From positions 1-53,656 of the forward strand of contig NZ_LZLJ01000005.1 in the NCBI RefSeq assembly GCF_001668625.1: DNA of 53,656 nt, given 5' to 3'. This stretch comes from Mycobacterium sp. 1274756.6. GTDB taxonomy: Bacteria > Actinomycetota > Actinomycetes > Mycobacteriales > Mycobacteriaceae. Under the pieces are notes generated by a model that was not told the origin of the DNA, did not search any database, and worked only from the letters and a program-made list of their open reading frames with translations. Position numbers and translations under genes: made by a program. Shown piece by piece: positions 51,427 to 53,656 of this stretch. The number at the start of each line of letters is the position of its first letter. Position 1 is the stretch's first letter.

Positions 51427-52806
51427 ATGCCTGTCGGGCCCGTCTGGATGGCGTCTCCGCCGGAGGTGTGGTCGACCCTGTTGTCGGCCGGCCCCGGGCC
51501 GGGGCCGCTGCTGGCGTCGGCCGCCGCCTGGTCGTCGCTGAGCGCCGAATACGCCGAAGCCGCAGCGGATATCACCGCGACGGTAGCCGCGGTGCAGTCC
51601 GGCTCCTGGCAGGGGCCGAGCGCGGCCGCCTACAGCGCGGCGCACCTGCCGTTCGTAGCGTGGCTGACGCAGGCCGGAGCCAACGCGGCGGTGACCGCCG
51701 CCGAACAGCAGGTGGCGGCCGGCTCCTACACCGCGGCGCTGGCGATGATGCCCACCATGCCGGAACTGGTGGCCAACCACGCCATCCACGGGGTTCTGGT
51801 GGCCACCAACTTCTTCGGCATCAACACCATCCCGATCGCACTCAACGAGGCCGACTACATCCGGATGTGGGTCCAGGCGGCGGTCGCGATGAGCACCTAC
51901 CAGGTCACCGCCACGACGGCGATGGCCTCCACCCCGCGATCGGTACCGGCGCCGATGGTGCTCAAACCGGGGGTCGGCGAGGCCGGCGACGCTCAGGCGT
52001 CGATGATGCAGGCACGGGCCCAGGCGCAGGCCGCAGATTCGGGGAATTCGCTCAACCTCGGGGACCTGATGCGGCAGTTCCTCGAACTCTTCACCGACCC
52101 CCAGAAGCTGCTGAGCTTCCTACTCAACCCATTCGCGAACCTGCCCCTGCTGTTTCTGGTCGGCTATCAGGTGTTCTTCAACCTCGTCGGCTGGCCCACC
52201 TGGGCGATGATCCTCAGCGCCCCGCTGGTGTTGCCGCTGGTTCTCGGCTTGGGCATCAACGCGATCCTGCCGCAGGCCGGTGTCGAGGCGCCCGCTGGTG
52301 AGGCGCCAGCCGAAGAACCGGCCCGCGAGCCCGAGGCGGTCAGCACCCGCACCGACCACCCGCCGCTGCCGGTGACCCCGGCGCCGGTGGCACCGGCGGC
52401 GGCCGCACCGCCGGCAGCCGCACCAGCCGCACCGCCGGCGCCCGCGGCCCCCGTTCCGGTCACCGGAGCCGAAGCGGTCGGCTATGTGGTCCGCGGCGAG
52501 GACTGGGGGCCGGCGGTCGGGCCGACCATCAACGACCGGTCCGGCGCCAAAGCCCCGGCCGCCCGCATCCCGGCCGCAGCCGCCGGAGTGCGGGCGATGA
52601 ACCGGGAGCAGGCCCGCGCCCGGCGTCGCCAGCGCAAGCAGATGAAGGACTTCGGCCACGAGTACATGGACATGAACGCCGATGCGGGCGGGCCCGATCC
52701 AGCCGCGACCGCGTCGCAGCGGGGAGCCGGCCGACTGGGCTTCACCGGCACCGCGGTCAAAACCGACGTCGCTCCCGCTACCGGGCTGGAGGAGGGACCG
52801 ACGTAG
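51427..52806 (+). CDS. PPE4: PPE-family protein PPE4, C-terminus altered at an inversion junction
   Basis: A 459-residue PPE protein. The N-terminal PPE domain (about 1-180) starts PVGPVWMASPPEVWSTLLSA and contains SWQGPSAAAY; two hydrophobic segments lie near residues 230-285 (NLPLLFLVGYQVFFNLVGWP); then a Pro/Ala-rich linker and the conserved GHEYMDMNADAGG and GAGRLGFTGTAVK. It ends LEEGPT. From memory, M. tuberculosis PPE4 (about 513 residues) carries on beyond the matching DGPT with PMVPG-type sequence. Here the TAG stop is made by bases that belong to the inverted espG3, so some tens of residues are probably missing. Confidence 0.9.
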   Translation: MPVGPVWMASPPEVWSTLLSAGPGPGPLLASAAAWSSLSAEYAEAAADITATVAAVQSGSWQGPSAAAYSAAHLPFVAWLTQAGANAAVTAAEQQVAAGSYTAALAMMPTMPELVANHAIHGVLVATNFFGINTIPIALNEADYIRMWVQAAVAMSTYQVTATTAMASTPRSVPAPMVLKPGVGEAGDAQASMMQARAQAQAADSGNSLNLGDLMRQFLELFTDPQKLLSFLLNPFANLPLLFLVGYQVFFNLVGWPTWAMILSAPLVLPLVLGLGINAILPQAGVEAPAGEAPAEEPAREPEAVSTRTDHPPLPVTPAPVAPAAAAPPAAAPAAPPAPAAPVPVTGAEAVGYVVRGEDWGPAVGPTINDRSGAKAPAARIPAAAAGVRAMNREQARARRRQRKQMKDFGHEYMDMNADAGGPDPAATASQRGAGRLGFTGTAVKTDVAPATGLEEGPT

Positions 52807-53060
52807 CGAAGGTCCAGCCAACGGTCCGGGAAGCACACCACCCGAATCCAGTCGGCTACCGCCGGGTTGACGGCACCGTCGGGTGCCAACAGTCCCAGCT
52901 GGTCCAATTCGTCAGCCTGGTCGGCCAGGAACGCCGCCCGCTCGCCGGCGTCCTGGTACGGCGTGGTGATCGCCAGCACCCACGGGAAGGAGCCCGCTTC
53001 GATGGTTTCGGCGATGTACCACGCCTGGTCGACCGTCAGCTCAACCGCGTTGGGTCGCAC
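52794..53060 (-). pseudogene. espG3: espG3, first 89 codons only, truncated at the junction
   Basis: Minus-strand reading gives AVELTVDQAWYIAETIEAG, SFPWVLAITTPY, NPAVADWIRVVCFPDRWLDL and RYVGP, which I recognise as the N-terminus of the ESX-3 chaperone EspG3 (about 295 residues in M. tuberculosis). After YVGP the frame continues to 52482 only as the antisense of PPE4, so the last 200 residues are replaced. EspG3 keeps PE5-PPE4 soluble before export, so this copy cannot be functional. The start is a GTG at 53060, 6 bases after the esxH stop. An intact remainder may lie outside the window. Confidence 0.85.
52795..52805. other. Rearrangement junction inside ESX-3
   Basis: GGACCGACGTA is read as ...GPT plus the first bases of the stop in PPE4 (plus strand) and as TACGTCGGTCC, coding YVGP, in espG3 (minus strand). 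Left of it the sequence is PPE4; right of it the reverse strand is espG3, esxH, esxG. The 11 bases look like the shared microhomology at which two regions normally about 1 kb apart and in the same orientation were joined head-on. Confidence 0.8.
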
Positions 53061-53066
53061 TGCTCG

Positions 53067-53354
53067 TTAGCCCCACTTAGCTGCTTGCGCCTGGTCGCGG
53101 CCCAGCATGGCCAGGGTGTTGGCCTCGTGGGTGCCCGCCATCGCGTGGTAGGCGCGGATCAGCTCTTCCATCGCAGTGTTCCACTGGGCCTGCCAACTCT
53201 GGTAAGTCAGCCCGGTGTCACCCTGCCAGGCGCCGCGCAGCGCCGCCTGCTCGGTGGCGATGTCGGCGCCGACGGCCCGCAGCGCGCCCGCGTAGCCGTT
53301 CATCTCGCCGGCGTGACCGAGCATCGCCGGGTAGTTGTACATGATCTGAGACAT
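53067..53354 (-). CDS. esxH: ESX-3 secreted protein EsxH (TB10.4)
   Basis: A 95-residue WXG100 protein starting MSQIMYNYPAMLGHAGEM, with the WxG turn in RGAWQGDTG and a C-terminal HEANTLAMLGRDQAQAAKWG that carries the HxxxD-type signal. It pairs with EsxG, is exported by ESX-3, and in M. tuberculosis binds zinc and blocks host membrane sorting. GGAAAGG-type sites precede the ATG. Length is normal. The gene is intact but stands on the opposite strand from eccABC-PE5-PPE4, unlike all ESX-3 loci I know. Confidence 0.95.
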   Translation of the reverse strand: MSQIMYNYPAMLGHAGEMNGYAGALRAVGADIATEQAALRGAWQGDTGLTYQSWQAQWNTAMEELIRAYHAMAGTHEANTLAMLGRDQAQAAKWG

Positions 53355-53385
53355 CAGTGGTCCTTTCGGTACGGAAGGTCGGGGC

Positions 53386-53656
53386 TTAGGCTCCGCCGCC
53401 GGTGTAGGCAGCAGCGGCGGCGGCGTCGGCGGCCACGTAGGTGGTGCCGGCCTCGCCGAGGTTGGCCTGGGCGATGTCCAGCAGCGAGTTCACCTTGGCG
53501 GCGACCTCCACGAAGCGCAGGTGCGCGGCCTGGAAGGCGGCGGAACCCTCACCCTGGTGGAAGGCCTGCGACGCCAGCGCGGACTGCTCGGCTTGCGCGA
53601 TCGTGCTGCGCATCAGCGCGGTCTTGGCGCCGAACGCCGACTCCGAGGCGATCAGC
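53386..53656 (-). CDS. esxG: ESX-3 secreted protein EsxG (5' end missing)
   Basis: The reverse strand from the window end reads LIASESAFGAKTALMRSTIA, AEQSALASQAFHQGEGSAAF and on to YVAADAAAAAAYTGGGA, matching EsxG (97 residues in M. tuberculosis); about ten N-terminal residues are beyond the end. EsxG lacks the canonical Trp of WXG, with FHQG instead, as normal. Partner of EsxH; the stop is 31 bases before the esxH start on the minus strand. The first base of the last complete codon is at 53655. Confidence 0.93.
   Translation of the reverse strand, partial: LIASESAFGAKTALMRSTIAQAEQSALASQAFHQGEGSAAFQAAHLRFVEVAAKVNSLLDIAQANLGEAGTTYVAADAAAAAAYTGGGA

Follow-up and report, generated by a model that had tools for sequence, protein, structure and literature searches.

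The head-on junction of PPE4 with espG3, esxH and esxG at the right end of contig C5 of Mycobacterium sp. 1274756.6 is best explained, with a probability of roughly 0.9, as an inverted (fold-back) chimera that was kept by the assembler beside a data gap, and not as a real inversion. An artefact of one kind or the other, either such a chimera or a joining made by the assembler alone, is close to certain. Of the explanations offered in the original prediction for this DNA, the fold-back artefact is the one that gained support, from the native continuation of espG3 on a second contig (C17) and from fold-backs that recur at contig ends of the same assembly.

The window, that is the whole analysed stretch of 53,656 bases, is the entire contig C5, one of 97 in an assembly of 3.76 Mb, and position 53656 is therefore a contig end. 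Its open reading frames place PE5 and PPE4 on the plus strand, followed on the minus strand by the 5' part of espG3, esxH and a 5'-truncated esxG, and the head-on arrangement that was originally described is thus present in the letters of C5. For the frames further upstream we presume the names eccA3, eccB3 and eccC3 from the gene order of ESX-3. The features are:

43670..45532, plus strand: eccA3-like AAA ATPase gene, whole, in the 5' part of the ESX-3 locus (open frame, 620 aa)
45529..47100, plus strand: eccB3-like gene, whole (open frame, 523 aa)
47097..51080, plus strand: eccC3-like FtsK/SpoIIIE ATPase gene, whole (open frame, 1327 aa)
51115..51423, plus strand: PE5 (99% identity to L059, the M. 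trivialis locus, residues 1-102)
51427..52806, plus strand: PPE4 open frame (from the list of open reading frames)
51427..52788, plus strand: PPE4 sequence proper, codons 1-454 (tblastn match to L059 residues 1-454; the BLAST match ends at 52788)
52781..52788, no strand: the joint, 8 bases CCGGGCTG, turning point of C5 (overlap of query 1667-1674 in the comparison with M. trivialis)
52781..52857, no strand: 77 bases that recur exactly at the end of C17, taken as an assembly-graph node with a probable k of 77
52781..53060, minus strand: espG3 5' part, about 93 codons, with GTG at 53060 (remainder at C17:13269-13913, minus strand)
52789..52806, plus strand: false end of the PPE4 frame, antisense to espG3 (same as C17 within the shared 77 bases; not in L059 PPE4)
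53067..53354, minus strand: esxH, whole (95 aa, 95% identity to L059)
53386..53656, minus strand: esxG without its first ten codons, at the contig end (89 aa, 5' end open, 96% identity to L059)

Among 20 named loci compared, the closest was that of Mycolicibacillus trivialis DSM 44153, with identities of 99% for PE5, 96% for esxG, 95% for esxH, and 93 and 95% for the two parts of espG3. Window positions 51115-53656 were used as a query against the M. trivialis genome, where query 1-1674 matched the plus strand over PE5 and PPE4, in two pieces (1-878 and 965-1674), and query 1667-2542 matched the adjoining minus strand over espG3, esxH and esxG. The opposite-strand matches overlap by 8 bases (query 1667-1674, window 52781-52788, CCGGGCTG), and in M. 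trivialis the two joined segments lie about 1.1 kb apart on opposite strands. PPE4 tracks its M. trivialis counterpart to codon 454 (52788) and then diverges, its last codons and the TAG stop being antisense espG3. An 11-base stretch at 52795-52805 had been proposed to fit both genes, but it belongs to espG3 alone, being found in C17 and, reverse-complemented, in L059. The placing of the 5' part of espG3 on the minus strand was correct, while its length of 89 codons has to be revised to about 93, as the espG3 sequence reaches 52781. By eye, the espG3 side of the joint looks like a small stem-loop with 7-base arms and a 5-base loop. The longest inverted repeat listed at the right end of the window has 47 bases at 70% and lies within the coding sequence of PPE4 and esxG.

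The rest of espG3, which the original prediction had proposed to look for in the assembly, was located on C17 (C17:13269-13913, minus strand). This contig of 13,914 bases ends with an exact copy of the 77 bases at window 52781-52857, and the share is preceded by A in the window, by T in C17. C17 encodes the remaining espG3 on its minus strand, open to the contig end, then a frame of 473 aa and then a subtilisin-like frame. We presume the 473-aa frame, which matches the corresponding position in relatives, to be eccD3, and likewise presume the name mycP3 for the subtilisin-like frame. Using the Pfam EspG model, espG3 was found only as two halves, one on C5 (profile 1-80) and one on C17 (60-244), and other EspG proteins were found on C96 and C48. 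An unbroken espG3 thus spans, on C17, the place where C5 turns into PPE4. The shared direction of ESX-3 genes is absent from C5 as written, and on C17 the unbroken espG3 is followed by the eccD3 match on the same strand.

The gene order was compared with that of relatives in 49 fetched loci (L020-L068), 38 of which contain PPE4, esxG, esxH and both parts of espG3. In all 38 complete loci the four genes are co-directional and in none is the order inverted (0/38), these counts being of loci and not of species, since some loci may share one genome. The other 11 loci are incomplete (L026, L027, L044, L040, L046-L048, L055, L056, L057 and L062). L040 begins after PPE4, and L046-L048 consist of PPE matches alone. 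In L026, L027 and L044, a PE5-like gene stands directly ahead of esxG with no PPE4 match between them. In L055, L056, L057 and L062 (M. kyorinense twice, M. celatum and M. shimoidei), the contigs stop 124-149 bases past the PPE4 stop, three of them right after a recognisable start of esxG; a repeated esxG-esxH pair may be what interrupts assemblies at this place.

The native order in every complete relative locus bears directly on a fixed inversion of about 1.1 kb in this strain, which would shorten PPE4 and split espG3 and which the original prediction had named as one explanation, at about 1 kb. The contig is indeed so written, and short inverted repeats are present at both edges. However, the two parts of espG3 are continuous on C17 over the 77 bases shared with C5, an arrangement that a fixed inversion in a pure culture would have abolished and that already hints at read support for an intact espG3, and fold-backs recur at unrelated contig ends, as described below. 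We thus consider a fixed inversion extremely improbable.

Fold-backs at other contig ends were counted in the terminal 400 bases on either side of contigs C1-C82, corresponding to 164 of the 194 ends in the assembly; 32 of these read as N, leaving 132 readable ends. At 58 of the 132, at least 20 of the outermost bases are shared with other sequence examined. The commonest longest share is exactly 77 bases (26 of 132), and we infer that the assembler used k = 77. Exact self-inverted arms of 49-77 bases, some of them cut by the 400-base reading limit, occur at 14 of the 132 ends (C18, C24, C42, C43, C45, C46, C56, C61, C62, C64, C73, C76 and C79, with C73 at both ends), and a fifteenth end has 23 bases. 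For 7 of the 14, the arms are exactly 77 bases long and flush with the contig end. In an interior control of 400-base stretches, taken from C5 and C17 only, none of 161 had arms of at least 20 bases, the longest being 16. Since 14 contig ends carry self-inverted arms, the assembly has many likely chimeric termini.

Six of the 14 fold-back ends have a partner contig and turn there on 7, 8, 9, 10, 11 or 14 shared bases; for the other eight, none was found among the ends read. The six are C79e, C61s, C64s, C73s, C45s and C46s. The first five of these were compared with M. trivialis, and four of them (C79e, C61s, C64s and C73s) split into opposite-strand neighbours in that genome, the fifth, C45s, having no M. 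trivialis match. C79e splits at its 9 shared bases, and its partner C35e is collinear with M. trivialis over all 400 bases. The ESX-3 joint is of the same kind as these fold-backs, with a longer reach (about 1.1 kb). In nine cases, two contig ends have 128-389 bases in common in the same outward direction; three of these pairs (C11e/C75e, C29s/C44s and C64e/C66s) have no self-inverted arm of at least 40 bases within the 400 bases read, so that not every outward-sharing pair can be called a fold-back. By eye, C33/C23, C25/C26 and C12 also resemble fold-backs, and they stand outside the counts. The 5.4-kb contig C58 shares 77 bases at each end with two contigs (C1, C34, C43 and C49), and by eye 5S rRNA seems to lie at the ends of C1 and C34; the C58 pattern fits a collapsed rRNA operon that is present twice.

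The self-inverted arms at these other ends turn on 7-14 matching bases, as though real molecules had re-primed there. They therefore argue against the assembler or a scaffolder having joined the two ESX-3 pieces without any chimeric read, which would likewise be an artefact and would agree with a joint that coincides with a 77-base node and borders on a gap in the data; we regard such a joining as unlikely.

The co-occurrence in one assembly of a native joint on C17 and an inverted joint on C5 could in principle also reflect a switching, phase-variable inversion with both orientations in the culture, as had been suggested originally. The inverted repeat available to it is, however, just 8 bases long. 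When fixed stretches of the locus were searched in 16 relatives, three had one of the 8-base members, three had the other and none had both, and a conserved invertible repeat bounding the segment was rejected as a candidate on this result. Pairs of this kind are moreover common, with 95 inverted 8-base pairs spaced 0.9-1.3 kb apart in 5 kb of neighbouring DNA. Given their distribution in the relatives and the abundance of such pairs nearby, nothing marks the two 8-base sequences as a recombination site, and no single recombinase site fits, because the 7-14 bases on which the other contig ends turn are unrelated in sequence. Together with the lack of the inverted order in the complete relative loci, this makes a switching inversion very improbable. 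In the part of the literature on mycobacterial ESX inversion or phase variation that the search covered, no title was on an ESX inversion. Equally improbable is a mixed population in which microhomology-driven inversions really exist in a minor fraction of cells, affecting ESX-3 as well as many further loci, and leave some cells without PE5-PPE4 export.

Between the two matches to the window, M. trivialis has 213 bases comprising the tail of PPE4, intergenic DNA and the first ten codons of esxG. Using this stretch as a query, no counterpart was found in the assembly (40 of 48 candidates scored). The best two matches, on C95 and C97, were rejected, since each proved to be the tail of another PPE gene with unrelated neighbours. 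C95:15020-15238 and C97:1-126 are two other PPE genes cut by contig ends, of which the C-terminal tails only are present. The last 97 bases of the window have no good match on other contigs, the best other match being 22 bases (40 of 95 candidates scored). Searches with the Pfam EspG model and with these 97 bases gave no second intact copy of the kind that the original prediction had named, beside an artefact, as more likely; all of the assembly searches exclude at least 16 contigs, all shorter than 3 kb, that read as N at both ends. The missing PPE4-esxG stretch, or the reciprocal joint, may lie in one of these short contigs. A switching inversion would require both joints, and one is seen. 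The absence of the second, reciprocal joint that a true inversion would make is weak evidence in any case, because its expected place is within the missing stretch or past it.

For the fold-back chimera, the following course of events can be proposed. PPE4 and espG3 each have one of two complementary 8-base sites, which lie about 1.1 kb apart. A free 3' end at either of them would re-anneal at its counterpart and prime further copying in the opposite direction. With few or no good reads across the stretch from the PPE4 tail to the esxG start, a chimeric read would give PPE4 an alternative continuation. The graph would branch at the 77 bases common to both contigs; there an assembler with k = 77 would extend the longer contig by the esxG-esxH-espG3 piece and end C17 at the node. 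The order in the chromosome would then be PE5-PPE4-esxG-esxH-espG3-eccD3. The chimera could stem from whole-genome amplification or from library preparation, both of which fit.

Several properties of the joint are those by which a fold-back chimera is recognised. Two segments that are near each other in the genome are joined in opposite orientation, short complementary bases are present at the joint (8, at 52781-52788), the native arrangement is also in the assembly, with espG3 unbroken across the joint on C17, and the same kind of event recurs at unrelated places of the same assembly. Counting against an artefact, the longer contig carries the chimeric and not the native path, and the chimeric path must therefore have had support enough to survive the assembler.

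PPE4 and espG3 look to have been broken by assembly and not by evolution, and the genome itself most likely lacks the head-on arrangement. A study in M. abscessus (PMC11791044) reports that co-expression of EspG3 is necessary for the secretion of PE5-PPE4; we found no reason to think that this function would be lost here. Reading the joint as an artefact prevents a false claim that EspG3 and PPE4 have lost their function in this species. Since roughly one in ten of the contig ends that could be read in this assembly is a fold-back, any further head-on gene pair lying less than about 1 kb from one of its contig ends deserves distrust.

If C17 adjoins C5, the locus has the same order as the ESX-3 of mycobacteria, that is PE5, PPE4, esxG, esxH, espG3 and eccD3; compared with that system nothing is demonstrably different, with the PPE4 tail and the esxG start being the parts not found here. 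Inverted chimeras are described for multiple displacement amplification (MDA) by Lasken and Stockwell 2007 (PMC1855051), where 406 of 475 MDA chimeras were inverted, 337 of these joined segments less than 10 kb apart, and up to 21 complementary bases were seen at the joints. In the model given there, a displaced 3' end re-primes on a nearby displaced strand, and hairpin self-priming is set aside as a major route. The ESX-3 joint resembles these chimeras in being inverted, in joining segments within 10 kb, in having few complementary bases at the joint and in missing the intervening stretch, whereas it is known through an assembly alone. Chimeric reads with inverted repeats from library preparation are described in a study on human capture libraries (PMC10908179), in which the reads turn and continue nearby on the opposite strand. 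The present joint is like them in turning at inverted repeats and running onward on the opposite strand nearby, and, set against those human libraries, the turns in this assembly are made on 7-14 shared bases.
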